Source: a virus. From it: a stretch of DNA of 22,890 nucleotides. The position numbers were made by a program, and so were the translations under genes. The stretch is from IMG/VR virus record IMGVR_UViG_3300009620_000067, positions 1 through 22,890 of that record. One strand, 5' to 3'. The notes beneath the pieces were generated by a model, which was not told the DNA's origin, searched no databases, and saw only the letters and a list, made by a program, of their open reading frames with translations. This document shows, in pieces, positions 1,892 through 20,908 of this stretch. How positions within the stretch are numbered: position 1 is the stretch's first letter; each line of letters begins with the position of its first letter.

Positions 1892-2344
1892 TCATAAAAA
1901 GGGGTGGTCGAGTCTCCATTGTTTTGTGCGTTGAACACGACAGGTGCGGCAATGCCTACGCTCTTTATATATGTAGGTGTTGAAAAGGTCATAAATATGT
2001 CCGTGCGGACAGTGTGTTTTAGCCCGATTCTTGTGAGCTAGTGCCTCACCCGATATCCCACGTTGCATATTTAGTTGATGAGAGACAGCCTCAAGATGGT
2101 CCCAATTTACACAAGGTGGATTACGGCAAAGATGGTCAAGTTCAAGCCCTTCGGGAATCGGCCCACTTTTGAGAACATAGCTAAATCGGTGAGCTAATAC
2201 GAGTTTGCCGTTAGGACGAAATTGTCCATATCCATTCGGATTTCGGTAGGCAGTCCATATCCAGCAGGATGTTCCATGAAAGAGAGGACCAGTTTTATCA
2301 ACCTTGGCCCAGAAAAGCTGGATGGTGGTATCATTAAAGAGCAT
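1892..2344 (-). CDS. HNH homing-type endonuclease (antisense)
   Basis: A 150-residue minus-strand protein. The start at 2344 is chosen because a GGAGGT ribosome site lies about 8 bases upstream, and because longer forms would run into the portal gene. Residues 50-95 carry an HNH_3-type core: AHRFSY, then LDHLCRNPPCVNWDHLE (Asp70, His71, Cys73, Cys78, His83) and a late Asn92. A C-terminal zinc-binding segment follows, with CPHGH at 112-116 and CRTC at 132-135. HNH proteins of this kind are free-standing or intron-encoded homing nucleases that cut DNA lacking the insertion. Here it sits alone, opposite in strand to all neighbours, splitting terminase from portal. It appears richer in A and T than its surroundings, consistent with independent acquisition. 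No intron core was recognised. Confidence 0.88.
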   Translation of the reverse strand: MLFNDTTIQLFWAKVDKTGPLFHGTSCWIWTAYRNPNGYGQFRPNGKLVLAHRFSYVLKSGPIPEGLELDHLCRNPPCVNWDHLEAVSHQLNMQRGISGEALAHKNRAKTHCPHGHIYDLFNTYIYKERRHCRTCRVQRTKQWRLDHPFL

Positions 2345-2370
2345 CGGGAGACCTCCTCTCTCGGTGTCGT

Positions 2371-2399
2371 GCGGTGGACTGTTGACCCAGTTCCACCGC
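2371..2399. repeat. Strong inverted repeat between the HNH and portal genes
   Basis: The arms GCGGTGGACTG (2371-2381) and CAGTTCCACCGC (2388-2399) are reverse complements except for one extra A, giving an 11-bp stem with a single bulge and a six-base loop TTGACC. There is no T-run on either side, so it is not a standard intrinsic terminator. It could be an operator, a 5' mRNA hairpin for the HNH transcript, or a scar of the HNH insertion. Confidence 0.7.
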
Positions 2400-2409
2400 C
2401 TCATATTAT
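2382..2409 (+). promoter_or_regulatory. Candidate sigma70-type promoter for the portal gene
   Basis: A -35-like TTGACC (2382-2387) and a -10-like TATTAT (2404-2409) each match the consensus at 5 of 6 bases and are separated by 16 bases. Transcription would begin near 2416, about 20 bases before the portal ATG and just ahead of AAGGAG and GGAGAAGG ribosome sites. It would restore sense transcription downstream of the antisense HNH gene. The consensus match is seen in the sequence; use by the host polymerase is inferred. Confidence 0.5.
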
Positions 2410-2413
2410 AGCA
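2405..2413 (-). promoter_or_regulatory. Candidate extended -10 promoter for the HNH gene
   Basis: On the minus strand this reads TGCTATAAT, a perfect extended -10 element; no good -35 is evident, as is allowed for this class. Transcription would start near 2398 and run through the inverted repeat and the GGAGGT site into the HNH gene. It overlaps the plus-strand -10, so the two promoters would compete for the same DNA. Confidence 0.5.
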
Positions 2414-2435
2414 TAAGGAGTAACTGGAGAAGGTT

Positions 2436-4346
2436 ATGGCTACACCAGAGGATATAATCCGTATGGTGGATAAGATGGAGTCGGACCGTGCCTCCTTGCA
2501 TGAGCGCATGGATAAAGACTTCGACCGCTACAATCTGGTGGCCTACGCCGGTGAGACGGACGAGAATGGCAACCCATTACTCAACGGGTACAAGAAATTC
2601 ACCTCTAATGACCCCCGTACCTCGATGAATCTTGCCGTCCATCTTCTGTCCACTGCCCCGGCACTGATTAGGGTCCGAAAGCCCAAGGCTCAGAAGGCCC
2701 AACGAGAAACGGACAATCTGAAGGAACTTTTCGCCTTGGGTATCCTTCAGGCAGCAGATACCCGTCGTGCTGACCTCATGATGCCATCCCTTCAGGACTC
2801 TCTAGCGGCCCAATGCCTCATGCGAGGCCGAACGGCGCAGAGAGTCTTGCTTATTAAGGAAGACATCGACCCGTCAGAGATAGAAGCGACTGTTGAAGAG
2901 ATTCCGCTTGAGACTGTGGGCGAAGAGGGGAAACCAGTAGAGGGGATAGCTACTTCAACTACCCGCACCTACGTGGATATTCAAGATTGGGACCCCCGTA
3001 ATACGTACTGGGGCATGGGAAAACATGGGTTGGCCTGGGCTTGCCATAAGGTGTCGAAGACCGCCGAGGCCATCAAGACCGAGTTCGATATCACTATAGA
3101 AGAAGGAAACCTGGATTCCTCTATGGAGTTCGCCGTCTACGACTATTTTGACGAAACCGACAATCAAATCATAGTTTCCGGGGGTAGAGAGGCCAAATCG
3201 AAAACCCCCCACGGGATGGGCAAAGTCCCGGTGGATATCCACATGGTTGGCGGGTTACCCTTCTTCCAAGCGGCTGGCAAAGATTACGAGGTCAACTACG
3301 GGGAGAGCTTCTACCAGTCCGACCGGGAAATGTACGACCAGCAGAACTTTATCCTGTCCGTGTTGGCCGAACTGAGCAAACGGTCCATCAGCCAGGGCCT
3401 CCTGGTCTTCTCTCAGGATGGGAAACTCAGCCTGGAGAGTGACCCGAGAGTAAGTGGCGCTGAAACACAACTGAGGACCACCCAAGAAGACGTTAAAACG
3501 ATGCCACCGATGGAGATGGTCAAAGAAAGTGGGGCGCTGATGGGCGTGATCGCCCAGATGGTGCAGCGCGGCACCTTCCCGGCATCGGTTTTTGGTGAGT
3601 TGGCCTTCCAACTATCGGGATTTGCCATCACCCAGCTAAGGCAGGGGATGGAAGCCCCGATCAGTCCGTCGGTGAAAACTACCAAGACCGCCCTCAGGGG
3701 CATCCTCAACATTCTGGCCGACGCCTACGTTTCCGCGAACTTTGATGTTATGACCCTTAGTGGCCGGATGCAAGACGTGGAGCGGACTGACTTTGAAGAG
3801 GAGATGTCTCTGGACGCGATCAAGGAAGGCGGGTTGATCGAGGTCGAAATCGTCCCACAACTACCTCAAGACGACGCGGCCAAGGCAGCTCTTGCGCAAA
3901 TCCTTACCTCTGGTGATGTCCCCCTTGTCGATCACCGGTTTGCGCGTGAGAACATTATCCAGTTGCAGGACGTGGAGCAGGTCGAACGGGCGGTACAGGA
4001 ACAATTGGCAAAGACAGGCAGCCCGACCGCTTTGGCCTTCAGTAATATGTTGGCAGCGGCAGAGCAAGGGGACATGGAACTCGCCCAGGTCTGGCACATG
4101 GAGTTCCAAATTCAAATGATGCAGCGAATGCACGAAATATCCCAGCTAAAAGCAATCGGTTCTACCCCTAATGGGGAAACGAACGGTACAAATGGAAGAA
4201 CACCTCGTCCATCACCAGAGGTGGCGCCCGCCCAAGTTCAGGGTATCCCATTGCCACCTCCAACACCCCAGGCCGGGCCGATCGCGGCCCCAGGGACACC
4301 ACGGCCTAACAGGAACGGAGCAGCTGGGGGCTTGCCCCCTCTATAA
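2436..4346 (+). CDS. Portal protein
   Basis: A 636-residue protein directly after the packaging genes and before the head module, the usual place for the portal that forms the 12-subunit DNA gate at one capsid vertex. The N-terminal part (KFTSNDPRTSMNLAVHLLSTA, about residues 53-73) resembles the region after the first helices of portals. The middle is mixed helix and strand, and helical segments follow around 400-560, as in a portal stem and crown. The last 60 residues are Pro, Gly and Asn rich and probably disordered. The ATG follows GGAGAAGG closely. No single diagnostic motif defines this family, so the call rests on size, composition, partial resemblance and gene order. A candidate promoter lies immediately upstream. 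Confidence 0.8.
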   Translation: MATPEDIIRMVDKMESDRASLHERMDKDFDRYNLVAYAGETDENGNPLLNGYKKFTSNDPRTSMNLAVHLLSTAPALIRVRKPKAQKAQRETDNLKELFALGILQAADTRRADLMMPSLQDSLAAQCLMRGRTAQRVLLIKEDIDPSEIEATVEEIPLETVGEEGKPVEGIATSTTRTYVDIQDWDPRNTYWGMGKHGLAWACHKVSKTAEAIKTEFDITIEEGNLDSSMEFAVYDYFDETDNQIIVSGGREAKSKTPHGMGKVPVDIHMVGGLPFFQAAGKDYEVNYGESFYQSDREMYDQQNFILSVLAELSKRSISQGLLVFSQDGKLSLESDPRVSGAETQLRTTQEDVKTMPPMEMVKESGALMGVIAQMVQRGTFPASVFGELAFQLSGFAITQLRQGMEAPISPSVKTTKTALRGILNILADAYVSANFDVMTLSGRMQDVERTDFEEEMSLDAIKEGGLIEVEIVPQLPQDDAAKAALAQILTSGDVPLVDHRFARENIIQLQDVEQVERAVQEQLAKTGSPTALAFSNMLAAAEQGDMELAQVWHMEFQIQMMQRMHEISQLKAIGSTPNGETNGTNGRTPRPSPEVAPAQVQGIPLPPPTPQAGPIAAPGTPRPNRNGAAGGLPPL

Positions 4347-5705: not shown

Positions 5706-6029
5706 ATGGTTACTCCTAATCCATTTGACATCGACTTTCGGCGGAGCATCTTCGCGGAAGACCCGAACCTTGCCTTCCAGACCAGCATCACGCAGGCTGG
5801 GCTCCCCCGCCAGATGTCGGACTTCTTCAGGCGGCGCACTTCGACCTTTCTGAACCAGTTCCAGGGAGCGTTGGGTCAGCAGTTGGACGAGTTGGGCAAG
5901 GCCGACCTGAACCCGCTGGACTTCTTCCAGGGAAGGGACTTCCGTACCGAGTTCTCACGGTTCTCTCCCAGTGAACGTGGAGAAAATACCCGTCTATTCA
6001 ATCCCAGGACCCGTAGGATTTATTTTTGA
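5706..6029 (+). CDS. Small hypothetical protein, Phe/Arg-rich
   Basis: A 107-residue protein beginning MVTPNPFDIDFRRS and ending NPRTRRIYF. It is rich in Phe, Gln, Arg and Asp. The segment SDFFRRRTSTFLNQFQGALGQQL (about residues 38-60) is likely an amphipathic helix. It resembles the C-terminal half of the preceding gene in its FxPxxRxF style, hinting at a related function, but I recognise no family. The gene is 6 bases after its neighbour, and its stop (TGA 6027-6029) shares one base with the next start, indicating translational coupling in the portal-capsid operon. Confidence 0.65.
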   Translation: MVTPNPFDIDFRRSIFAEDPNLAFQTSITQAGLPRQMSDFFRRRTSTFLNQFQGALGQQLDELGKADLNPLDFFQGRDFRTEFSRFSPSERGENTRLFNPRTRRIYF

Positions 6030-9000
6030 TGCCTAGTCACTATTCTAGGAAGGAACGCGAAGCTAGGCGTCGCAGAGCGAACGAGGCCGTTGTCAGGGCT
6101 ATCCCGCTTCCTGTACGACCGCGTGACGAACCTGAACGAGTACCGGGCCCGGTTCCAACTCCTCAGCCCCCAGGACAGCCGTTTGATCCTGCGCCTATAG
6201 ACCCAAACCCCGGCGGTTCTGGCGTTCCTCTTGGACCATTGGGTCCGGTCTTGGACTTCTTGGAGGCTACCGCAGAAGCGAACGCTCAAATTCAAGCGAA
6301 TGTTGTGCCCATCCGTGATCCCGGCATGGCAGCACTTAAAGGTCCAACGGGGTTTGTCCCACTTGGCCCTTCCCTAGAGGCCCTACGGGCAGGGGAACAG
6401 GGGGTCGTCCAAACTGGGAAGGGACTTTTGAGGGAATCTGCTGCCCGTCCGGGGTTTGAACGGGCTATGGTTCAAGCGATTTTCGACCCATTGCATGCAG
6501 CGCCGTTCATCGGTTTTGCCCCTCGCCCATCAACAGTAATTCGTGGTCTTCGTGGTCTTCGTGGCGCTGGCAAGGCGCCCCAGGCAGTGGTCAAGGAAAT
6601 CCCCTTGGAGGCGGCACAGGCACCCAAAGCCTTGGGCCCAGCAGTGGTAGAGGAGATTCCGCTGGAACAACGCGGGGCCATTCAGTCCGGAATGGGCATT
6701 GGCGAGGCCCCCCCACAGGGCCAACTCTTCCCAGAATCACCAACTGAGGCTGTCCGTGAGCCATTGGTAGATGTGACAGGAATTGAGGCAAGGCAGGCGC
6801 GAGAGGCGGAGGTAGCACGGGGGCAGCAGTCCTTACCCGAGGGGTCGCCGCCCGGTCCTGCTGTTTCCGAAGAGGTTTTGCCAGAACCACAGGTCGTTGA
6901 GACCGCGTTCGATGAAGCTGCCGAAAGAGCCGTCTTCTCGCCGTTGGAAGAAGCTCAACTCAAGGTAGATGAGGCCCAGGCGTCTCTGGAAGCCGCGCTG
7001 GAACGTGGATTACCTGTGCCTAAGTTTGGCACACCTGAACGGGCCGAGTTTGATGCGGCAAGACGTGCTGCATCTGCTGAAGGTCGTCCCATCAAGCCGA
7101 AGACCGTACAACGCCAAGAGGCGAGACAGGCCCTCAAAGATGCTCGGGTTGCACTTCGGTTGATTGAACAAGATGCACAGGATTTTCGTCAGACCATATC
7201 TTTTGGACCTGAACACCCGGACTTTCATAGGGTTGTTCTTCAATGGTTCAGAGATTTCCTAAAAGACCCTTGGCGGATTGACAACTGGGGACTGCAACAA
7301 CAATATAGGACAGCGGTACGCTCTGAACGTATCAACGACTATAAGGCCACCGTAGAAAAACTCATCTCGGAAGGCGTCGCTAGTGAGAACGCGATGCGGT
7401 TTGCCAGGGCATCCATGAGTGGTGAGTTGCCCAGCGTTTCAACAGGTATTAAGGAAATCGTAACCCCACAGATTAGGCAAGTGCTTTTCGACGAGGTTCA
7501 CCTGGTTCTTGCCAACGATGGTTTTGCGATGTTGAGTACCGAAGAAGCTCTTAACAATGCGCTGGCAGGAAGAGAAGTCCCTCGCATTCCTGGGTCGCAA
7601 GGTGGCTCGGCCTTTAGCCGGTTGGCCCGCGTGTTTGGCGACGAGATGGCTGAGGCTATATCGCAGCGACAAACCTTGGGTGAAGTTATCAGTCTACGGG
7701 CGGGTAGGCGTGGGACCCAGACCAATATGGGGCCGGGAGGTGTGGTCCCTCCGGGGTCACAGCGGCCTCCTATCCCGTTCCAAGAACAGCCAGGCACTCA
7801 AGGCTTTGGTACCGCCACGATTCATGGCGCAGGTCGTGGCCGTCAGGTGTTTGGCGAATTACCAACAGACCGTTTGCTACCCGATGAAGCTGCACTGGAT
7901 GCTCCGACCCAACCGCTTCGTCTGCAACCGCTGCCGGGACCGTTTCCCGAATCCGGTCCCCGTTTATCCGCTGCCGAGAGGAGTATTCAAGCGCAAGAAC
8001 TTGACCTCCGGATACGCCGACAAAACCAAGGCCAACTGCCCCTTGAAGGCATAGAGTATGTTGAGCAGCCTCCATTGGGTGCTCCCCAAGCCCACTTAAT
8101 ACCAGAACCGGCCCCAGGGCCGTTTCGGACTTCTGTGCCTGAGCCTTGGCTGGCGGATATGCCCCAAGGCCTCACTCCAGGTGCCCAAGAGCGTTGGCGA
8201 CGGGAGCAGCGCAGGTATCACGCGATTCTGGAGAATGAACACCTACGTCACTTGACCGAAACTACCAAGGAGCGAATGATTCGCTGGGCCAAGATTGCTG
8301 CGTTGACCCCGGTAGATTTTGGCAACCTAATTCGGGCCAACATGGCCAGCGTAGACATGAGCTATCTAAGGCAGCAGGCCCCGTTGATTGCTGGTCACCC
8401 ACTGAAATTTATTCAGACCTTTCCCGATGCTTTTCGTGCCCTTTGGTCGGACACTTATGTCCGCAACCTGGACGACGCCATTCAGTCTGATCCCTTCTTT
8501 ATGATTACGGGTGAGGTGCCTCAGTGGTACCGGGCTGTGGGTAGTCTCGGGCGAGAGGCGGGGGAAGTGGCCGAGGAAGTGATAGTTCAGGCGGGTAGAC
8601 GCCCAATACAGCGCCTTGCCGCCAATATGCCCCACATCAACATATCCAACCGGGCCTTTGTCAGCGGTCTCAACTCACACAACGCCTCTATTCGTAAGGG
8701 ATACATACGCAGTCTGATGGAAGGCGATGAGGCTGTGCTGGCAGCAAAGCAGTCCGGTCTCAAGAGACGCCGTACCATAAGTGACCCATTCCCTCGGCAA
8801 GACGTGCTGGGTGCCTCGGGCATTAAGAAGAGGGTGGAGAACTTTGACCGTGTTCTGGCTAACCTATCGGGGCGTGGACCGCTGGGGCCGTTGAAGGGAG
8901 GAGATAGGCAGGCCATTGCAAACAACCTATTTTTCTCCATTCGCCTCAATACAGGACGGTTTTTGTTACCCAAAGACCTTATATGGGGAGACTCCGGCTC

Positions 9001-9814
9001 CCGTAAGTTGGCCTGGAAGAGCATGATGTCCTTTGTTGGCTTGATGTCAGGTATACTCCTGACGGGGCGTGCGGCCGGATGGTGGGACCTGGAAACCGAC
9101 CCACGTAGTAGCGACTTCATGCAGGCCAAGATAGGCCGGTTGCGGCTAGACCCCTGGGGTGGGTATCGGCAGTTTGCAGTCCTGTATGCTCGGATGCTCC
9201 CGGTGGTCGGGGGGATTAAGTCACTGGATGACGGCAAAATCTCCGACTACGATCCCGTGAATGGAGTTACCCGTTTTTTGAGAAATAAGGCTGCTCCGAT
9301 GGTTCATAACGTCTTGCGGGGCTGGACAGGCAAGGATTTCATTGGGCGGGAGATCGACCGGACGGATTGGAAGGCATGGCTGAGCGAAAACATCCAACTC
9401 AGCGTTCAGGAAGTGATGGACGCCTACGAGGGTGAGGGACTGCTTGGGGCGTTTATCGCCGCTCCTGCCGCCACATTTGGTGTGGGAGTCACGGTAATTC
9501 CATTGACACTAAATGATGTCTCCAAAGACCTAGGCTATGGCAACTATTACGACCTGCCGCTGCTTAGTCCTAAGCGTAAGACCGTAAGGGACGCGTTGAA
9601 AGAGCGTCGAAGCCAGCGAGAGACGCAGATGGAGGAAGAGAGGAAGCAAAGAATTAAAGACAGAGCCACCGAACGAGAGGCGGAGCGGAAACGCAAGTAT
9701 TCGGAGCGGTTTGGGTCAGGATCATCTAGGCCACGGCCATCCCAAAGGGGCGTTCCACGCCGAGGCAGTCGTGAGAGACCAATACCTGCCTTCGATCCGG
9801 TTGGGACTCAATAA
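6029..9814 (+). CDS. Very large polyvalent-type virion protein, possible internal/ejection protein
   Basis: At 1261 residues this is the largest gene here. ATG 6029 overlaps the previous stop and is preferred over the TTG just before it. Residues 1 to about 290 are Pro and Gly rich with a duplicated EIPLE motif near 188-215. Helical, charged stretches follow to about 500, then a Pro/Gln-rich linker to about 700. The folded C-terminal third has RLRLDPWGGYRQFAVLYARM and RFLRNKAAPMVHNVLRGW, a pattern I associate with large polyvalent protein-associated (LPD) domains of phages. A hydrophobic stretch lies near 998-1015 and an Ala/Gly-rich one near 1138-1160. The last 80 residues form a highly charged helix and a basic tail. 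In a short-tailed phage such a protein would plausibly be an internal protein released with the DNA. The domain name is from memory; function is inferred. Confidence 0.7.
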   Translation: MPSHYSRKEREARRRRANEAVVRAIPLPVRPRDEPERVPGPVPTPQPPGQPFDPAPIDPNPGGSGVPLGPLGPVLDFLEATAEANAQIQANVVPIRDPGMAALKGPTGFVPLGPSLEALRAGEQGVVQTGKGLLRESAARPGFERAMVQAIFDPLHAAPFIGFAPRPSTVIRGLRGLRGAGKAPQAVVKEIPLEAAQAPKALGPAVVEEIPLEQRGAIQSGMGIGEAPPQGQLFPESPTEAVREPLVDVTGIEARQAREAEVARGQQSLPEGSPPGPAVSEEVLPEPQVVETAFDEAAERAVFSPLEEAQLKVDEAQASLEAALERGLPVPKFGTPERAEFDAARRAASAEGRPIKPKTVQRQEARQALKDARVALRLIEQDAQDFRQTISFGPEHPDFHRVVLQWFRDFLKDPWRIDNWGLQQQYRTAVRSERINDYKATVEKLISEGVASENAMRFARASMSGELPSVSTGIKEIVTPQIRQVLFDEVHLVLANDGFAMLSTEEALNNALAGREVPRIPGSQGGSAFSRLARVFGDEMAEAISQRQTLGEVISLRAGRRGTQTNMGPGGVVPPGSQRPPIPFQEQPGTQGFGTATIHGAGRGRQVFGELPTDRLLPDEAALDAPTQPLRLQPLPGPFPESGPRLSAAERSIQAQELDLRIRRQNQGQLPLEGIEYVEQPPLGAPQAHLIPEPAPGPFRTSVPEPWLADMPQGLTPGAQERWRREQRRYHAILENEHLRHLTETTKERMIRWAKIAALTPVDFGNLIRANMASVDMSYLRQQAPLIAGHPLKFIQTFPDAFRALWSDTYVRNLDDAIQSDPFFMITGEVPQWYRAVGSLGREAGEVAEEVIVQAGRRPIQRLAANMPHINISNRAFVSGLNSHNASIRKGYIRSLMEGDEAVLAAKQSGLKRRRTISDPFPRQDVLGASGIKKRVENFDRVLANLSGRGPLGPLKGGDRQAIANNLFFSIRLNTGRFLLPKDLIWGDSGSRKLAWKSMMSFVGLMSGILLTGRAAGWWDLETDPRSSDFMQAKIGRLRLDPWGGYRQFAVLYARMLPVVGGIKSLDDGKISDYDPVNGVTRFLRNKAAPMVHNVLRGWTGKDFIGREIDRTDWKAWLSENIQLSVQEVMDAYEGEGLLGAFIAAPAATFGVGVTVIPLTLNDVSKDLGYGNYYDLPLLSPKRKTVRDALKERRSQRETQMEEERKQRIKDRATEREAERKRKYSERFGSGSSRPRPSQRGVPRRGSRERPIPAFDPVGTQ

Positions 9815-12971: not shown

Positions 12972-13892
12972 ATGGAACGGGTACTCTTTGCGGTCATGGG
13001 GGATCATCCTTTCCCTTTGATTGGGGGTGGGACAACCCATGACCGCTTTTCGCAGATAGCCGAGTTCACCAACACGGTGGACGTTACACTGTTTATCATT
13101 CCCGATCTGCGGGATGTGATGGGGGACACCCAGTTTGGTAACCCCAAATGGGGACCCAAACACCGCACGATTCACTCCATGAGACTCCTGGCGTCCCGCT
13201 TGGCCAAGGACGGGGATTACGACTGGCTGTTCATCGTGGAGAACGATGTTGATTTAGCGGCCAATACCTTAGAAACCCTACTCGCCCACCGGAAAGATAT
13301 CATCGTGCCGAAACAGGAGTTCCCCACCTGCCCTGATTTCCCCTTTATGAAGGGAATGTTCTATCAACCTCAGGAGGAAGCCGACCAGACAGGACTACAC
13401 CATATTGAATGGTGTGGTTACTCCGCTACCCTTTACCGGATGGAGGCCTTCAAGGAAGTCGATCCCATGTTTGTCGGCGGTGGCGAAGGTATCGATTATG
13501 CTAGGTGGCAAGACCACGGTATTCGGGGCTGGATGGACCTGGACATCGAAGCGGTCAATCTCCGACCGGCGTCATCCCAGCAGATACTCATAGACTTGCC
13601 CTTAAAGTACCGGATGCACCAGAAAACAGCGTTGGATGGCGTTGTGGAACAATGTGGGGGGAAGCTGCACAGCTTGCCAGCAACGAAGATCAAAGGGGCA
13701 CAGGCTGCCCAGTGTGAGGATTGTGGTTATTACATCGAATACCGACCACCAAAGGGCTTTCGAGGCGAAACCCTCAAGGAACTCGGATTACTGGAATCGG
13801 GAGTGGGAGACGGGCGGACGGCAGATGGCTCACCGGGTGGAGTCAACCGGCCTGCTCTTGGAGTTAGCGGTAATGCCAGTGGCCCCTCCTAA
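12972..13892 (+). CDS. Glycosyltransferase, GT-A (family 2-like)
   Basis: A 306-residue reading frame. Residues 1-45 form an N-terminal alpha/beta start. YDWLFIVENDVDL (83-95) supplies the acidic metal-binding motif of GT-A enzymes, with Glu90, Asn91 and Asp92 in place of DxD. IEWCGYSATLYRMEAF (145-160) and FVGGGEGIDYARW (167-179) match the acceptor-side segment, and a late His lies in KYRMHQ. It would transfer a sugar from a nucleotide donor. CEDC at 248-251 could be a metal site. Beyond about residue 262 the sequence becomes Gly/Ser-rich and unlike a folded domain, while another frame begins to look coding, so the true C-terminus may be affected by a frameshift. It sits at the head of a sugar-modification cassette. 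Confidence 0.75.
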   Translation: MERVLFAVMGDHPFPLIGGGTTHDRFSQIAEFTNTVDVTLFIIPDLRDVMGDTQFGNPKWGPKHRTIHSMRLLASRLAKDGDYDWLFIVENDVDLAANTLETLLAHRKDIIVPKQEFPTCPDFPFMKGMFYQPQEEADQTGLHHIEWCGYSATLYRMEAFKEVDPMFVGGGEGIDYARWQDHGIRGWMDLDIEAVNLRPASSQQILIDLPLKYRMHQKTALDGVVEQCGGKLHSLPATKIKGAQAAQCEDCGYYIEYRPPKGFRGETLKELGLLESGVGDGRTADGSPGGVNRPALGVSGNASGPS

Positions 13893-15027
13893 AGTCGTCA
13901 TAGATATTGGATGTGGCAAGTCCAGTTCCCTAGAGACCATTCGAGGGGTAACGAAGGCCGAACGTTGTAATGGGGTAGATTGGTCGGATGTCTCCCTTGA
14001 TGCCAACAGCAAGCATTACGCCGAGTGGGGTGAGTGGATTCACTGCGACATTGAGCGCGATCAGGTGCCCCTACCTGATGAGACCGCTGATTTCGTCTAT
14101 TCCAGTCATCTGATTGAGCATATTGAAAACCCCTATATCCTGTTGGACGAACAACTGAGGCTCTGCAAGCAGGGTGGGATTATCGCAGTTGTCGCCCCGT
14201 TGAATATGTACGACCGAGAACATCGTCATGTGTTCACTTCAGGAGACGACGCAATCGGAAATAGTGGCTGGTATAATCAAACCATGAAGTACGGGATTGC
14301 AGGGTATGGGCGGTTGGGTAAGGCGACGGAAAGGATGCTGCCCGTCGAACTCGAGGCGTTCTGGGACCCTCCCCAAATGCGATTGGATAGCCTATCCGAC
14401 TGCGACGTGATTTTCGTTTGCACTCCCACGCCCTGTGGGTTTGATGGTCATATACTGGAAGGCATTGACGAGATTGCTTCTCAGGCCAAAGATGGGTGCT
14501 GGGTTTGTGTCAGAAGCACGGTATCGCCCGGCGACACAGATATTCTAGCGGCACGGTATCCCCAGCTAAACTGGTGCGTGGCCCCAGAGTTTCGCACCGA
14601 CCTTCAATTGGCAGAGATGGCTGCTTGCCGCTTCCCTATCTTCGGATATGAGGATGTGCCTTCGGATGAACTGAGGAGCATATTTTACGCGGCGCGTTTC
14701 ATGTCTAGGTCAGAGGCCGAGTTGGTGAAAATAGTCGTCAATTGCGCCCTGGCTACACAGGTTGCGCTGGCTAACGAGTTCCACGAACTGGCCGAAACCC
14801 TGGGGGCCTCGTGGGGACCGATTCGGGTTGCACTACTGGACGATAACCGGGTTGGCAGCCAATGGAAGGTCACAGAAGAGAGAGGCTTTGGTGGGCAATG
14901 CCTTCCGAAAGACTTAGATGCGGCAATCCAGTGCTTACAACAGATGGGGGTTGAGCCCTACATCCTGAGCGCGGTCCAGAAGGCCAACAAGACGCGCTTT
15001 AGGCCCAAGGTCATGGTAAATGTCTAA
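13873..15027 (+). CDS. SAM methyltransferase joined to a short UDP-glucose dehydrogenase-like domain
   Basis: The frame is open from 13636. The start at 13873 (384 residues) is chosen for its GGAG ribosome site 10 bases upstream, but residues typical of a methyltransferase N-terminus (YWNREWETGG) lie upstream in the same frame, from about 13775. Residues 9-19 (VIDIGCGKSSS) are the SAM-binding loop, Asp36 follows strand 2, and DFVYSSHLIEHIENP (73-87) and GGIIAVVAP (101-109) complete a class I fold. From Met138 the protein becomes a nucleotide-sugar dehydrogenase: GYGRLG (144-149) for NAD, STVSPG (215-220), PEF (238-240), Lys286/Asn290, and GFGGQCLPKD (338-347) with catalytic Cys343. It stops about 40 residues later, so the usual C-terminal UDP-binding domain is missing. 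Products such as uronic acid sugars are inferred. Confidence 0.8.
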   Translation: MPVAPPKVVIDIGCGKSSSLETIRGVTKAERCNGVDWSDVSLDANSKHYAEWGEWIHCDIERDQVPLPDETADFVYSSHLIEHIENPYILLDEQLRLCKQGGIIAVVAPLNMYDREHRHVFTSGDDAIGNSGWYNQTMKYGIAGYGRLGKATERMLPVELEAFWDPPQMRLDSLSDCDVIFVCTPTPCGFDGHILEGIDEIASQAKDGCWVCVRSTVSPGDTDILAARYPQLNWCVAPEFRTDLQLAEMAACRFPIFGYEDVPSDELRSIFYAARFMSRSEAELVKIVVNCALATQVALANEFHELAETLGASWGPIRVALLDDNRVGSQWKVTEERGFGGQCLPKDLDAAIQCLQQMGVEPYILSAVQKANKTRFRPKVMVNV

Positions 15028-15872: not shown

Positions 15873-17138
15873 ATGGTAGTCTCACAGGCAGCCACCAGAG
15901 AAACTATCCGGGTCGCCGTGGGACGTAACCTACGGGCTGTCGAACTCATTACGTCGGCCATTGATGGCTCGGCCACCGAGTTCCTGACGGATGACCTGCC
16001 TGGTGTGACCGCGAACGACCACAAGGGCGGTCAATGGCTTGGGACCGATACCCCCAACGATGGGACTCAGGCGCGAGTCAGCGCCTCCACTGAGGCCAAT
16101 AACCGGACCACGTTAACTCTTTTACCTGCAGTATCGGCTACGAAAAAAGACGACACTGCTGAGTTGTGGAAGGAATACAACCCGAAAGACATCCACGACT
16201 ATATGGACCAGGCGATGCGAGAGATCACGGGCTTGGCCTATGACCCCGAGGAGAGTCTAGCCCTCCATGCTGATGGTCGAACCCTGCGGTTGGATATTCC
16301 AAGCCAGTTTGCCATGCTGAACCGGGTTGACTACCGGAGCTCGGTCGAATCGGTAGTTGTTCATAATGCCACGGACGTGTGGGACGAACTGGGGGCCGTT
16401 GCCGAAGTTACCAACCTAAAAGACACCAAGGATTATAAACGTGGCCCTGCGTCCTTCAGGATGGTTGTGACGGCCAGTGCTGCTGCCGGTCTCTTACTTG
16501 CTTCAAAGAAAATAGACTCCAAGAATATTGCGGGAATGGACTACGTTGAGTTCTGGATCAAAAGTACGGTGGCAACCACCGCTGCTGGTGACCTACAACT
16601 CCTTCTAGACGATACCGCCAGTTGTGCCTCTCCGCTGGAAACTCTGGATGTGCCTATTTTGGTGGCGGATACCTGGACTTATGTTCGGGTAGCCTTGGCA
16701 ACCCCTGAGTTAGACACCGCCATTATCAGCGTGGGGCTGAAGTACACGGTGGACATCGGAGCCTGCACGGTTTGGGTAAACGACGTAAAGACCGTTCTGG
16801 ATAGTACGGCGCAGTGGCCAACTCTGCACAAGGACCTATGGGACGTGGACAAGCAGGCCCGAGACCTGGTGCTGAAACCGTCTGCCAACGTGGGATACGC
16901 CCTACTAAAACTGGTTGGGGGCGACAAGCCTGCATTACTGGCTACGGACGCAACCGTGTGCGAGGTCAACGATTGGTATGTGATCTGTCGAGCTACCGCT
17001 CTCGCGCTTAGGAGCGGTGCTGGCGGCCCTGCTACCGACCCGGACCAGAAACGGTTGGCAGCCCGTGATTGGGAGCTACTGGCCCAGCAAGCCAAGAACG
17101 GACACTATCTGCCACAGAACATAAGGACGATCAGTTGA
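15873..17138 (+). CDS. Adaptor-like virion protein with inserted carbohydrate-binding-type beta-sandwich
   Basis: A 421-residue protein in three parts. The N-terminal part (to about 160) includes the helix DIHDYMDQAMREITGLAY (106-123) and LRLDIPSQFAMLNRVDY. Residues about 168-312 form a beta-sandwich segment with MDYVEFWIKSTV, DLQLLLDDTASCASP, LVADTWTYVRVALATP and TAIISVGLKYTVDI, a style typical of carbohydrate-binding jelly rolls. The C-terminal part returns to RDLVLKPSANVGYALLKL and a helix ending DQKRLAARDWELLAQQAKN. The outer parts resemble the strand-plus-helix layout of short-tail adaptor proteins (T7 gp11 or P22 gp4 type) by eye. If right, the sugar-binding-type domain is inserted into a connector. 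The gene overlaps the next start by four bases (TTGA). Confidence 0.55.
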   Translation: MVVSQAATRETIRVAVGRNLRAVELITSAIDGSATEFLTDDLPGVTANDHKGGQWLGTDTPNDGTQARVSASTEANNRTTLTLLPAVSATKKDDTAELWKEYNPKDIHDYMDQAMREITGLAYDPEESLALHADGRTLRLDIPSQFAMLNRVDYRSSVESVVVHNATDVWDELGAVAEVTNLKDTKDYKRGPASFRMVVTASAAAGLLLASKKIDSKNIAGMDYVEFWIKSTVATTAAGDLQLLLDDTASCASPLETLDVPILVADTWTYVRVALATPELDTAIISVGLKYTVDIGACTVWVNDVKTVLDSTAQWPTLHKDLWDVDKQARDLVLKPSANVGYALLKLVGGDKPALLATDATVCEVNDWYVICRATALALRSGAGGPATDPDQKRLAARDWELLAQQAKNGHYLPQNIRTIS

Positions 17139-19015
17139 CGAGCCAGGCTGTCCTAGACCGAAACACCATTAGCCTCAATGGGACGTTATACCCGCTGAAA
17201 CGTCCCGTACAAAGGCACTTGGCGTCTATCTATCCAGGGAAGGTAGTGGTGGGGGACACTGGCCGGGATAGCAACCCCAACGCTTCTCCCTTGGCGCGTT
17301 CCGATTGGAGCGGGGGGATCGGTCTCTTCAAGGATGAGGGTGTCAGTCCTCAGCCACGGTCTTTCTTTTCCACATGCTCCCTACGATATAAGTCCCTTAC
17401 TTTACCTGGATTGGAGGTGGAGACCGCTGCATCCGGGGCGACAGGGACCTTTACTGTGGGAGTCATCGGAGAACTGGACGACGAAATCTACGCTGCGTTT
17501 GGTTCATCGGTCAGAAAGTACGACTTTGGGGCAGATTCCTGGGGTAGCAGCCTTCATACCTTGCCAGAGGTGGCCACGGACGTACTGAGCAACGTCAGAA
17601 TGGGCGGCACGGTCTATCTCATTTTTGCCCACACCGGGGGGTATACCTACTTCGACGGGACTACTTGGACCAACGACTCCAAGGATGCAAAGTACCTAGC
17701 CTTCTGGGCCGATAAGCTCTATGGGATCGACAAGACTGGCCTACTATGGAATGCCAGCACGATTGGCACGGAAACAAATGATGCCCAACTACCCTTACCG
17801 GACGACACGGTAACCGCTCTCTTCCAGGCCCGTGACGCGGCTGGGACCGTGATTCTATACGCTGCGACCAAGGTAGGTTTGTTTGCCCATGACAACACCA
17901 ATACGAAGTGGGTTGCAACCGAGGTAGATTTCCCAGTGCATCCAGATGGTGGGCGAGGGACCGTAAAATGGCGTGATAGCGTCCACACTCCAGCGGGGTT
18001 GGGCATCTACAAGTTCATCAATGGGGCTAACTCGGCTGTCCTAACCATCGAGGGGCCTGACCGTGATGATGGGATGCCTTCAGGCAAGGGCGGCACCATC
18101 GTCCAGTTGGTAAACAGTCATAACGACTTACTTGCGGTCAACGACGCCACCGTGGGATACGACCATCGAACCAAGCTGACCACGTTTGTTTCTAGAGGAA
18201 TGCGTAAACACCGAGGTGTGACGATGAATCCCAATGAGGGCTTCTCGTCTATCCTGGGGTTGAACGATATGGGTTGGGAGGTCAAGTTCCTCAGCGCATC
18301 CACCGACAAGGCCATCAGCTACGCCATGGTCAGCAGCGCCTATGGGAAGTACCTATTATGGTTCGGAATGGGCGAACGGGTTTCGTACATAGAGGTTCCC
18401 TCTGAGATCGTCAATCCCAACGAGATAAGCACACTTCCCTACGCTGCCAGTGCTCAGGACATCAGCCCGTGGTACAACATCGGCCAGATGGAAGTCAACA
18501 AGTTGGGTCTTCAGTTACGGGTTGAGACTTTGGACCTTTCTTCGACTGAGACTGTGAAGGTTTCTATCGCCTACGACTTGGTGGATACTGATACCGTACT
18601 GGGGACCATTACCACCAACGGCGTTACGACCTACGTGCTGCCCGATACCACCACACCGGCAGGGAAAACGTTCCTGTGGTTCCGAATCACAATTGATTTG
18701 GCTCGGGGGACTACGACTACGAAGACCCCCCAGATGGTCAACTGGACCATGGAGTACCGAAAGAAACTACCAGAGAAGTGGGGCTTTGGCGTTGCGTTGG
18801 ACTTGACCAAGGACGATTATCATGGGAAGACTCCTGCGGACTTGAGGGCTGATATTGTTACCGCCGTGGGGAGCGAAGTCTTACTTCCATTCCTCTGGCG
18901 GGACGATGCGAGTGGGGTGTCTACGTTCTATGTGGACGTAGCCCAGGCTGACGGGCTGGAGTATACTGGGCATGACCAGCGAGGGGACGTTAATCTCGTG
19001 CTGGTGGAACGATGA
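17135..19015 (+). CDS. Tail nozzle- or beta-propeller-like virion protein
   Basis: The frame is open further upstream, but TTG 17135 is chosen: it overlaps the previous stop by four bases and has AAGGA 9 bases before it, giving 626 residues. The N-terminus has NTISLNGTLYPL and SDWSGGIGLF, a pattern I associate with beta-propeller phage tail proteins. Residues about 100-300 show repeated strand units ending in short aromatic turns (IYAAFGSSVRKYDF, GGYTYFDGTTWTND, VILYAATKVGLFAHD), as in propeller blades. The C-terminal half is a beta-rich platform (LGLQLRVETLDLSS, TMEYRKKLPEKWGFG). Short-tail nozzle proteins such as T7 gp12 contain a propeller, which fits the position after an adaptor-like gene. 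The family assignment is by pattern only. Confidence 0.6.
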   Translation: MTSQAVLDRNTISLNGTLYPLKRPVQRHLASIYPGKVVVGDTGRDSNPNASPLARSDWSGGIGLFKDEGVSPQPRSFFSTCSLRYKSLTLPGLEVETAASGATGTFTVGVIGELDDEIYAAFGSSVRKYDFGADSWGSSLHTLPEVATDVLSNVRMGGTVYLIFAHTGGYTYFDGTTWTNDSKDAKYLAFWADKLYGIDKTGLLWNASTIGTETNDAQLPLPDDTVTALFQARDAAGTVILYAATKVGLFAHDNTNTKWVATEVDFPVHPDGGRGTVKWRDSVHTPAGLGIYKFINGANSAVLTIEGPDRDDGMPSGKGGTIVQLVNSHNDLLAVNDATVGYDHRTKLTTFVSRGMRKHRGVTMNPNEGFSSILGLNDMGWEVKFLSASTDKAISYAMVSSAYGKYLLWFGMGERVSYIEVPSEIVNPNEISTLPYAASAQDISPWYNIGQMEVNKLGLQLRVETLDLSSTETVKVSIAYDLVDTDTVLGTITTNGVTTYVLPDTTTPAGKTFLWFRITIDLARGTTTTKTPQMVNWTMEYRKKLPEKWGFGVALDLTKDDYHGKTPADLRADIVTAVGSEVLLPFLWRDDASGVSTFYVDVAQADGLEYTGHDQRGDVNLVLVER

Positions 19016-19416
19016 CGACCCAGCAGGCTCAGGACCGCGCTCTCCGCCAGACTTTACCGGATAATTGGCCTGGTAGTTTACCAGAATACCTTGTGTTCCA
19101 AGAGTTGGTGAGGCGGGGATTAAGGCCGGACATAGATTTCACTTACCAATCGCCGTTTCAGGGAGGCCGTCTACAAAAGGGCGGGGTTGTTTTGGACTTT
19201 CTGTTTGACGACCCACCAGACTTGGCCATCAACGTACAGGGCACATTCTTCCACGGGGGGACCCAGAGACAAGACGCTATTGTACGGGCGCAGATGGCAG
19301 GTGAGGGGATAACCGTCATATTTATAGATGAGGCGGACATTCTGAACGACGTAAGACGGGTCGTTGGAGCGGCCCTTCGGTATCAAGACTTGAGCCGTTT
19401 GGGGCCAGGAAGGTAA
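19012..19416 (+). CDS. VSR/PD-(D/E)XK nuclease-like small protein
   Basis: A 134-residue protein whose ATG overlaps the previous stop (ATGA). It carries the elements of a restriction-endonuclease-like fold: an N-terminal helix with Glu25 (PEYLVFQELVRRG), GGRLQKGGVVLDFLF with Asp62 on a strand, then INVQGTFFHGG, where Gln76 takes the E/QxK catalytic position and His81 follows, as in very-short-patch repair (VSR) and DUF559-type nucleases. A final strand ITVIFIDEADIL and helix complete the fold. Expected activity is DNA nicking or cutting, but this is unproven. The location inside the tail gene cluster, rather than among replication genes, is notable. A role in DNA processing at ejection is speculation. 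Confidence 0.7.
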   Translation: MTTQQAQDRALRQTLPDNWPGSLPEYLVFQELVRRGLRPDIDFTYQSPFQGGRLQKGGVVLDFLFDDPPDLAINVQGTFFHGGTQRQDAIVRAQMAGEGITVIFIDEADILNDVRRVVGAALRYQDLSRLGPGR

Positions 19417-19420
19417 CGCA

Positions 19421-20356
19421 ATGGCTATATCCTTTATCGTTTTTGTTCATGATAATGCAGGTGCCGCCGTTGAAGGCGCTACGATGAATCTCTACGATCG
19501 GAACACCACAACGCCGGTCAGGGCCACTACCACAACGGATTCCACCGGCAAGGGTAGTATCAGCCATGCGACTGAGGGCCGATTCGATGTCGAGATCGTC
19601 AATGGGAGTTCCAAGGAGCGTCTGAAGTACGACGACTCGATTCAGATGGAAGCGGCTGAATTTGCTCTTCTCAATATGCGGGGGGCGGACGAAGCTTTCA
19701 AGTACGTCATCACGCCAGGCACCATCTCCGCAGAGCGCATCCTGAATATCCCCGTCCTTACCAAAACCGCCGCCTTCTTTGTCACGCCTGCCATCGAGGA
19801 CCTAGACCTTGACGGGTTCAACATTGACAACGGCGGTGTGATATTCCTAAAGGAGCAAGCAGAGGCGGACGCGGACGTAGCTGGCAGCGGTCAGATTTGG
19901 GTGAACACGGCCACTCCGAACGAACTCTGGTTTACTGACGATGCTGGAACGGATACCCAGCTTAACGTCGCAGCCGTGACCCAGGCGACCAAGGGTGCGC
20001 TGGAAGCTGAGACCAACGAGAACACCTACGCTCCACCCGACCTGATAAAGAACTCTCCTGGCATAGCCAAGGTTCACGGAAAAATTGATAGCGGTCAAGC
20101 GCTAATGACCGGAAGCTACAATATTGCCACCGTCACTGACAACGGCACAGGAGACTACACCGTAAACTTTGATGTAGACTTTTCTGCTGCTACATTTACC
20201 AGTGTAGGGATAGCAGTCAATGCTGGTCGGGCTGCTGAGGATAGAGTGGTGCAGGTGGGCGGCTCCCCGGCGGTAGGAAGCCAACGATATATTACGACAG
20301 TCAATGCTTCGCTCTCTAATATCCAAAGCGAAATCGCCTGTTATGGTGCCCAATAA
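19421..20356 (+). CDS. Tail fibre / receptor-binding protein
   Basis: A 311-residue protein. Residues 1-70 form an Ig-like or carboxypeptidase-regulatory-type beta domain (FIVFVHDNAGAAVEGATMNLYD, then GRFDVEIVNG) that may anchor to the tail. Residues about 130-190 contain VIFLKEQAEADADVAGSGQIW and NELWFTDDAGTDTQL, motifs frequent in phage tail fibres. A linker (QATKGALEAETNENTYAPPD) leads to a beta C-terminal tip of about 90 residues (SGSYN-like strands and TVNFDVDFSAATFTSVGIAV) likely to contact the host. The next gene begins at the stop (shared A), as fibre and fibre-assembly genes often do. Receptor unknown. Confidence 0.72.
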   Translation: MAISFIVFVHDNAGAAVEGATMNLYDRNTTTPVRATTTTDSTGKGSISHATEGRFDVEIVNGSSKERLKYDDSIQMEAAEFALLNMRGADEAFKYVITPGTISAERILNIPVLTKTAAFFVTPAIEDLDLDGFNIDNGGVIFLKEQAEADADVAGSGQIWVNTATPNELWFTDDAGTDTQLNVAAVTQATKGALEAETNENTYAPPDLIKNSPGIAKVHGKIDSGQALMTGSYNIATVTDNGTGDYTVNFDVDFSAATFTSVGIAVNAGRAAEDRVVQVGGSPAVGSQRYITTVNASLSNIQSEIACYGAQ

Positions 20357-20871
20357 TGAGTAAATGTATCGTTTGGGAAAGACTTGATGGTGGGGTTAGT
20401 GTATCAACCATCGACTATACCGACCCTAAGTGGGCGGGAATGACTGAGGCCGCGATTATAGCCAAGTGCTTGATTACGGGCCAAGCAGGTATGGACCACG
20501 ATTTCGGACCAGGGGCCATCTCGCACGTTTTTGAGCATGACGACCTACCGCCAGAGCGGCTTGATAATTCAGATTCGTTAGAAGGGCTGTACAGAAACGC
20601 CTGGGAGTGGGTAGGTGGTACGGTAGTTACCAATATGCCCAAGGCCCGAGGCATCCACATGAATCGTATCCGAAAGGACCGCGACGCAGAGTTGGAAAAG
20701 GAGTCGGGTTCAAAGTTCCGGCAACCGCCAGAGATCGAAGCCCTGTTTACAGCAGCACGGCTAGCCAAGCTCCAAGCATTACGGGACATTCCTCAGACGC
20801 TAGACCTCAATACAGCCAACGACACGCCTGCGGAACTCAAAGCTGTCTGGCCAGTGGAGTTACCTAAATAA
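20356..20871 (+). CDS. Probable tail fibre assembly protein
   Basis: A 171-residue protein overlapping the fibre stop by one base. The N-terminal 90 residues are mixed (DYTDPKWAGMTEAAIIAKC, then FEHDDLPPERL). The C-terminal half has an Arg/Lys-rich helix (RIRKDRDAELEKESG, about 105-119), LARLAKLQALRDIPQTL-type residues and a tail ending AVWPVELPK, resembling the C-terminal pattern of phage tail-fibre assembly chaperones (a helix starting RxxRD, then IPxT and WP near the end). Such proteins help trimerise the fibre. Directly following the fibre gene supports this. No enzyme motif is seen. Confidence 0.55.
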   Translation: MSKCIVWERLDGGVSVSTIDYTDPKWAGMTEAAIIAKCLITGQAGMDHDFGPGAISHVFEHDDLPPERLDNSDSLEGLYRNAWEWVGGTVVTNMPKARGIHMNRIRKDRDAELEKESGSKFRQPPEIEALFTAARLAKLQALRDIPQTLDLNTANDTPAELKAVWPVELPK

Positions 20872-20877
20872 CCTCTG

Positions 20878-20908
20878 CGTGGCAACGTAAGCCACGTACA
20901 GGGTTTTT
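20878..20908 (+). terminator. Possible weak terminator after the fibre-assembly gene
   Basis: A 6-bp stem CGTGGC/GCCACG (20878-20883 and 20891-20896) with a seven-base loop starts 7 bases after the stop at 20869-20871. A run of five T (20904-20908) follows, but only after seven further bases, so it is not a canonical intrinsic terminator. It may reduce read-through into the small genes downstream. Confidence 0.35.

Follow-up and report, generated by a model that had tools for sequence, protein, structure and literature searches.

The window analysed here, the whole stretch of 22,890 nucleotides (nt) from positions 1 to 22,890 of the virus record IMGVR_UViG_3300009620_000067, holds a single run of late genes, which encode a terminase, an open reading frame (ORF) of 636 amino acids (aa), a major capsid protein, further ORFs, a putative tail nozzle protein (NOZ), a small protein with a predicted nuclease fold (NUC), a fibre-like protein and a chaperone-like protein. 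The focus of this study was NUC. In a first-pass annotation it had been described as a nuclease-like protein within a tail gene cluster that might act on DNA during ejection, degrade competing DNA, or be a domesticated relic with a structural role. The gene and its immediate neighbours are:

17069..19015, + strand: NOZ, predicted nozzle protein, beta-propeller of 648 aa (AlphaFold2, predicted local distance difference test (pLDDT) 80.9; Foldseek)
19012..19416, + strand: NUC, nuclease-fold protein of 134 aa with ATG start (ORF and translation)
19421..20356, + strand: tail fibre-like protein with a prealbumin-like N-terminal stretch and a fibre C-terminal part (phrog_11355, tail fiber, E 4.7e-8)

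The start of the NUC gene overlaps the NOZ stop by 4 nt (ATGA, 19012-19015), and 4 nt lie between its end and the ATG of the fibre-like ORF at 19421. Its antisense frame is interrupted by stops. Because many homologues begin with M-T-T-Q, as does the window protein, the assigned start is probably correct. The upstream protein was named nozzle because its first 11 Foldseek matches were phage tail chains (Pa223, VP1, P22, Sf6, Kp9, E1004 and Pan3; E 1.3e-12 to 1.5e-8), with T7 at rank 13 and TM-scores of 0.25-0.58. As VIA-align put generic beta-propellers at the top of its ranking, the nozzle call rests on Foldseek. Judged from its model, the ORF is a podovirus-type nozzle beta-propeller.

The AlphaFold2 model of NUC (36 sequences) reached a pLDDT of 77.9 and a predicted template modelling score (pTM) of 0.75. 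Its top Foldseek matches were 3r3p, the homing-endonuclease domain of I-Bth0305I (probability 1.00, E 0.014), and the endonuclease-like entry 3hrl (E 0.04); none was found at an E value of 0.001 or better. VIA-align superposed NUC on Vsr (1cw0) with a Z-score of 9.7 (102 aligned residues, root mean square deviation 2.5 Å), on 3hrl with 9.7 and on 3r3p with 9.5. A second Vsr entry followed with 8.8 and two mitoribosomal chains with 9.5 and 8.9, while the remaining rows did not exceed 6.8. The predicted structure is thus endonuclease-like, as the first-pass annotation had claimed, and NUC is predicted to possess a VSR/PD-(D/E)XK-type fold whose alpha-beta core superposes, for the larger part of the domain, on solved structures of this type. 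An hhalign comparison of 14 NUC-family members with E. coli Vsr (E 0.0048) is weak by itself because the reported probability was only 7%; E25 lay outside the aligned range. The Vsr residues D51, H64, G65, H69 and D97, whose counterparts in NUC are given below, presumably have catalytic roles. Conservation was counted in 100 distinct NUC proteins, 95 viral ones including that of the window and five from bacterial genomes:

19084..19086, + strand: codon of E25, an acid in a helix; conserved as E in 85 of 100 proteins
19195..19197, + strand: codon of D62, aligned with D51 of E. coli Vsr (hhalign); conserved as D in 90 of 100
19231..19242, + strand: codons of N74-V75-Q76-G77, in the place of the (D/E)xK half-motif, with Q76 on Vsr H64 and G77 on G65
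19252..19254, + strand: codon of H81, aligned with Vsr H69 (hhalign); H in 78 of 100
19273..19275, + strand: codon of D88, aligned with Vsr D97 (hhalign); D in 92 of 100
19372..19395, + strand: C-terminal motif A121-S128, family consensus A-L-x-Y-R-D-H-S, in the window ALRYQDLS

Of the E, D, QxG and H pattern initially noticed, E25, D62, Q76, G77 and H81 are indeed there, whereas the motif itself reads N-V-Q-G and not Q-x-G; D88 has to be added. Position 74 was N in 75 of 100 rows, E in the group of L046 and L129 (IEVSG) and D in L138, a copy from a bacterial genome; with an acid at this place the latter proteins resemble ordinary PD-(D/E)XK enzymes. Position 76 was Q in 82 of 100 rows and H in one (L273). 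F43, F63 and A121 were invariant in all 100 rows. Within the C-terminal motif, A121 was found in 100, L122 in 95, D126 in 92 and S128 in 91 of the 100 proteins, so that these four residues (91-100) are at least as conserved as E25, D62 and H81 (78-90). The distance from H81 to D88 (19252-19275) amounts to seven positions in the window protein and to 11 in many relatives, the four-residue difference falling beside the catalytic histidine.

With Vsr (1cw0, 1vsr) NUC shares the fold and the register of D62/D51, G77/G65, H81/H69 and D88/D97. It differs by N-V-Q in place of F-x-H and by an identity of 17% in the structural alignment, and no repair context was seen around the gene. In Vsr, F-x-H stands in for the (D/E)XK half-motif, according to an excerpt of PMC1189080. 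Because the F-x-H half-motif is absent, NUC is Vsr-shaped, yet not Vsr. The residues E25, D62, H81 and D88 match the order E-D-x-H-D of the EDxHD homing endonucleases (I-Bth0305I, 3r3p; F-LimVIII), the motif being read from the name of the group. PHROG 3339 (homing endonuclease) was matched by 17 of 36 NUC members. Among the PHROGs, the L129 protein best matched 559, which carries the label HNH endonuclease (E 3.5e-7), followed by the homing endonuclease family 3339 (E 1.8e-6), and with the L046 protein tblastn gave weak matches in 113 records of annotated phages at E values up to 0.1, many of them annotated homing endonucleases. Unlike this group, NUC is a single domain of 134 aa without a DNA-binding extension, is fixed beside the nozzle instead of being irregularly distributed, and has a changed active site in 22 of 100 proteins. 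Free-standing homing endonucleases of phages are patchy in their distribution. For the EDxHD enzymes of phages, an excerpt of PMC3943268 describes long tethered DNA-binding regions and a multi-domain structure.

A weak Pfam match to REase_MTES_1575 (PF18741, best E 0.0034) was obtained for 16 of the 36 members; the window protein itself lacked a Pfam match and, searched alone, had no family match in PHROGs or Pfam. By tblastn against annotated phages, nothing was found for NUC of the window or of L008, nor for the nozzles of the window and L046. A pentatricopeptide-repeat identity, which arose from phmmer matches to designed proteins among the PDB sequences, was discarded, as the weak matches of one stretch to many repeats had been summed and the single-domain i-Evalues lay around 60 or higher. 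In the open-access literature we found nothing relevant on virion nucleases or on Vsr-type nucleases associated with a tail or nozzle, publication elsewhere being possible; the paper on phage PhiGT1 (PMC10386132) mentions neither a nozzle nor a nuclease or endonuclease.

The first 45 NUC relatives came from scans of viral contigs in which the queries were the window protein and a profile of two rows. They were picked by the peptide patterns INVQGTF and IFIDE[AD]D, so that the conservation of these patterns within the set is partly due to selection. A scan with the L046 protein added two relatives (L048, L049). Forty-three of the 45 proteins had 126-135 aa, one was truncated, and that of L046 had 180 aa. 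NOZ lay upstream of NUC in 44 of these loci, the remaining one being truncated, and a relative of the window fibre gene was recognisable downstream in 29. To avoid choosing loci by NUC, three scans were performed with NOZ profiles; they yielded 348, 258 and 267 nozzle relatives, of which the best 80 in each case entered the analysis. Loci were counted once per identical last 300 residues of the nozzle, and NUC was detected downstream by a hidden Markov model. NUC followed in 107 of 124 distinct nozzle loci; in 15 less than 700 nt of the contig were left, and two had no NUC. Of the 109 distinct loci that could be tested, 107 thus have NUC after the nozzle, and this placement, which the first-pass annotation had proposed to check, is conserved. 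In view of this fixed linkage, a recent mobile insertion was rejected. Likewise, a chance motif was rejected because of conservation in loci gathered via the nozzle gene: among the 54 distinct rows of the first nozzle-selected set, window included, E25 was present in 45, D62 in 50, Q76 in 47, G77 in 45, H81 in 42 and D88 in 51.

NUC was also found in five of 400 bacterial genomes from the phylum of bacterium HR28, HR28 itself (L129) included. All five genes lie directly downstream of NOZ, and the nozzles are 27-32% identical to that of the window. Since the flanks of L138 and L139 include genes that by eye are tyrosine-recombinase-like, the bacterial loci look like prophages. The nozzle-NUC pairs in the four genomes besides HR28 (L136-L139) are apparent temperate relatives of the uncultured phages. 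In 83 loci, NUC and NOZ identities were correlated (Spearman 0.50), a value reached by none of 999 permutations. NUC was apparently exchanged between lineages at times, as L156 pairs an altered NUC (type Y, see below) with a nozzle from another clade, and the L002 protein shares an identity of 0.61-0.63 with the NUC proteins of L006, L012 and L014, against 0.34 for the corresponding nozzles. On these comparisons, the NUC-nozzle pair is an old unit, mostly co-inherited with some exchange.

E25, D62 and H81 occurred together in 78 of the 100 distinct proteins, window included, and were changed in 22, a share that is overstated because one scan feeding the set was centred on the altered-site member L057; in an earlier nozzle-selected set, 12 of 54 rows were altered, window included in the count of rows. 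Identical rows were counted once. Left out were the truncated L045 in early alignments, L101 from both the 54-row and the 100-row sets, and the truncated L265 and L275 from the 100-row set; L030 with its short nozzle was omitted from one nozzle tree. Type X comprises 16 rows with A, S or T at position 25 in 15, D or E at 62 in 16, E77 in 16 and H82 in 15. The six rows called type Y/other (L079, L091, L092, L156, L182 and L273) carry A, K or T at position 62 and A, N, T or D at 81, and across residues 20-64 they lack 6-8 residues relative to the window protein; judged by these residues, type Y/other is a clear loss of the active site. The altered sites were clustered in a few lineages in a non-random manner. 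On free variation of the active-site residues, which the first-pass annotation had named as a refutation of its reading, the result is divided: 78 proteins keep the residues together and 22 are changed. On the nozzle tree the altered state required four changes, some of which may reflect a move of NUC from one lineage to another (L156), and on a NUC tree built without the catalytic columns it required two; the trees were quick and long-branched, and the NUC tree had few columns. The nozzles of four type-Y/other loci form one supported clade.

To the ratio of nonsynonymous to synonymous substitutions (dN/dS, NG86), intact copies contributed a median of 0.24 (260 pairs), which is filter-dependent (0.13 vs 0.24). 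Type X gave 0.09-0.43 with a median of 0.18 (16 pairs) and type Y 0.17-0.24 with a median of 0.19 (five pairs among four proteins); the pairs overlap and many dS values are near saturation. Altered-site copies remain under purifying selection, for which reason a pseudogene was rejected; nor does this support the relic that the first-pass annotation had considered. A second NUC copy was not detected in 14 scanned records with altered copies, which are fragmentary; the record of L214 was taken as a near copy of that of L213, and the record of L147 as one of L065. Of the C-terminal motif, all 22 altered copies kept A121 and L122, and 21 of them each kept D126 and S128. The entropy of this motif was 0.61 bits in altered and 1.13 bits in intact copies, the greater uniformity being partly due to the altered copies being fewer and closer to each other. 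Taken together, the sequences indicate that the placement of NUC is fixed and old, while its catalysis is not fixed.

In ten of 16 examined loci, a beta-rich-looking ORF of 95-102 aa separates NOZ from NUC, and a few loci have more small genes there; where tested (L066), this ORF had no family match. Between nozzle and type-X NUC, L065 harbors at 6310-6477 a match to the ferredoxin-thioredoxin reductase beta chain (PF02943, E 5.4e-8). At the same place, L099 contains a 172-aa ORF (3079-3594) whose I-E-V-K-T-K motif gives it, by eye, the look of a canonical PD-(D/E)XK nuclease, although this ORF had no Pfam or PHROG match. In L102 and L103 the nozzle-NUC gap is similar in size to that of L099.

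We tentatively favor, at somewhat less than an even chance, the view that NUC is a resident protein of the nozzle module whose shared function is non-catalytic, and that most lineages also keep a cutting site. A PD-(D/E)XK fold of the VSR/EDxHD type would have been captured long ago beside the nozzle gene. NUC would probably be produced together with the nozzle, in a single run, and would assemble with or contact the nozzle and fibre, where it might hold the DNA end; it would do so by means of its fold and of the C-terminal helix with the motif AL-x-Y-R-D-H-S. In most lineages, that of the window among them, a site for metal-dependent cutting or nicking of DNA (E25, D62, H81, D88) would be retained as well, and the protein there is probably a working nuclease. 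The fixed partner, the deep age, the selection after site change and the conserved C-terminal motif are what would be expected if NUC were a component of the module whose enzyme activity is optional. As a few lineages kept the gene after decay of the site, NUC may help to build or run the tail and not only cut. Among the three ideas of the first-pass annotation, a structural or assembly role thus fits best as the function common to all members, while a DNA-cutting role may apply to the 78 of 100 proteins with an intact site, window included. That the VSR/EDxHD fold was domesticated as a structural or DNA-end-handling part of the nozzle, with cutting being optional and lost more than once, appears to us possible, with roughly one chance in three. 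A purely structural view is weakened by the fact that most members keep the active site.

The nearest precedent in role is gp4 of phage T4, which resembles NUC by fold class and context only, as a small PD-(D/E)XK-fold protein in a structural gene cluster. An excerpt of PMC1189080 describes gp4 as a protein of 150 aa, predicted to be of the PD-(D/E)XK type and needed for head completion. It thus acts on the head and was, in that excerpt, matched to TnsA and T7 endonuclease I, whereas NUC is VSR-like and has the tail nozzle as partner.

Several points weigh against the favored view. The catalytic residues are kept in 78 of 100 proteins, which argues that catalysis matters to most. Type X may have lost its site or merely rearranged it, so that only six rows are clear losses. 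Under an earlier filter, dN/dS was 0.20 for altered (four pairs) and 0.13 for intact copies (175 pairs), the altered copies being slightly less constrained. NUC is not indispensable, since L282 and L290 have none after the nozzle, and no NUC match was found anywhere in their records of 28 and 6.8 kilobases, respectively. In L290, NOZ is followed by a 95-aa ORF and a fibre-like ORF, and in the NOZ tree both loci nest among NUC-bearing lineages on long branches. In the NUC model, residues 51-56 and 78-82, the latter around H81, have a pLDDT below 50. Finally, this view presumes that NUC is present in the virion and touches the nozzle, that the genes are co-transcribed, and that the intact majority is catalytically active.

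The alternative that survives best, though we consider it unlikely, is that NUC is primarily an active nuclease, carried by the tail or made late, which cuts or nicks DNA at ejection, in host takeover or in phage-phage competition. Type X would then be a rearranged enzyme and type Y a few degenerating copies. The joint retention of E25, D62 and H81 in 78 of 100 proteins and of D88 in 92, the D/E62, E77 and H82 residues of type X, and the fold of Vsr and I-Bth0305I are all consistent with it. It accounts less well for type Y/other, which lost D62 and H81, yet four of its proteins stand at dN/dS 0.17-0.24 (five pairs), and for A121, L122, D126 and S128 being as conserved as E25, D62 and H81 or more so. 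Much less probable is an action of NUC in the infected cell, where it would trim or check DNA ends in packaging or maturation, its place in the tail operon only setting late timing. A check on DNA packaging was proposed for T4 gp4 (PMC1189080, in excerpt), but NUC is linked to the nozzle and not to the terminase, which in the window lies far upstream at 215-1657.

Least of all, by a small difference, do we expect a resident homing or marker-exclusion endonuclease of the EDxHD type that cuts rival nozzle-fibre junctions and so spreads the flanking tail genes: its proximity to a receptor-binding gene, the PHROG (559, HNH endonuclease; 3339, homing endonuclease) and weak tblastn matches of L129 and L046, the fold match to I-Bth0305I, the exchange seen in L156 and L002 and the two loci without NUC would suit it, but the single domain of 134 aa lacks the long tethered DNA-binding regions that the excerpt of PMC3943268 ascribes to the known kind, NUC occupies 107 of 109 testable nozzle loci and is kept after site loss, and NUC and nozzle identities are correlated overall.

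The other features of the window are:

215-1657: terminase large subunit (PHROG E 5.9e-12), far upstream of NUC
2436-4346: unmatched 636-aa ORF in the usual place of the portal, judged by place only
15873..17138, + strand: conserved ORF 5' of the nozzle with relatives in other loci, possible adaptor judged from its place only
20356..20871, + strand: tail-assembly-chaperone-like protein (PF16778, E 0.002, under cut-off)
20876..20898, + strand: terminator-like hairpin after the NOZ-NUC-fibre-chaperone run (consensus scan only)

A relative of the ORF at 15873..17138 precedes the nozzle in 41 of the 45 NUC-selected loci, and also in the bacterial loci L136 and L139. The fibre-like ORF matched PF17210 and PF13620 under their cut-offs, the chaperone-like ORF has a counterpart in L002 with 54% identity over 114 aa, and the major capsid protein matched PF25209. 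The consensus scan disclosed five terminator-like sites in the region, with 3.3 expected; a promoter scan gave no more sites than shuffles. On the opposite strand, between the terminase and the next structural ORF, an HNH endonuclease gene was found at 1892-2509 (-) (PF13392, E 5.7e-12; PHROG 826, E 3e-50). It is 49% identical to an ORF of L002 (11082-11666, -) and is a more typical free-standing homing-type gene than NUC. The ORF at 13636-15027, whose start overlaps the ORF at 12972-13892, combines a methyltransferase domain with a UDP-glucose/GDP-mannose dehydrogenase, of which the NAD-binding part was only partly and the central domain nearly fully matched. A 1262-aa ORF in the structural region (6026-9814) had no Pfam match.

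If the fold was domesticated in the nozzle as considered above, a nuclease was turned into a tail part. A DNA-cutting fold is here tied to the tail nozzle, the gate for DNA ejection in podoviruses. The pair occurs in many uncultured phages and in apparent prophages, a large group for which tblastn with two NUC and two nozzle proteins found no relative among annotated phages. The question of enzyme versus part had already been raised by the PD-(D/E)XK prediction for T4 gp4. A temperate relative whose host can be cultivated would offer a way in, and the natural variants with and without the catalytic site would make this question directly testable for nucleases of tail modules.

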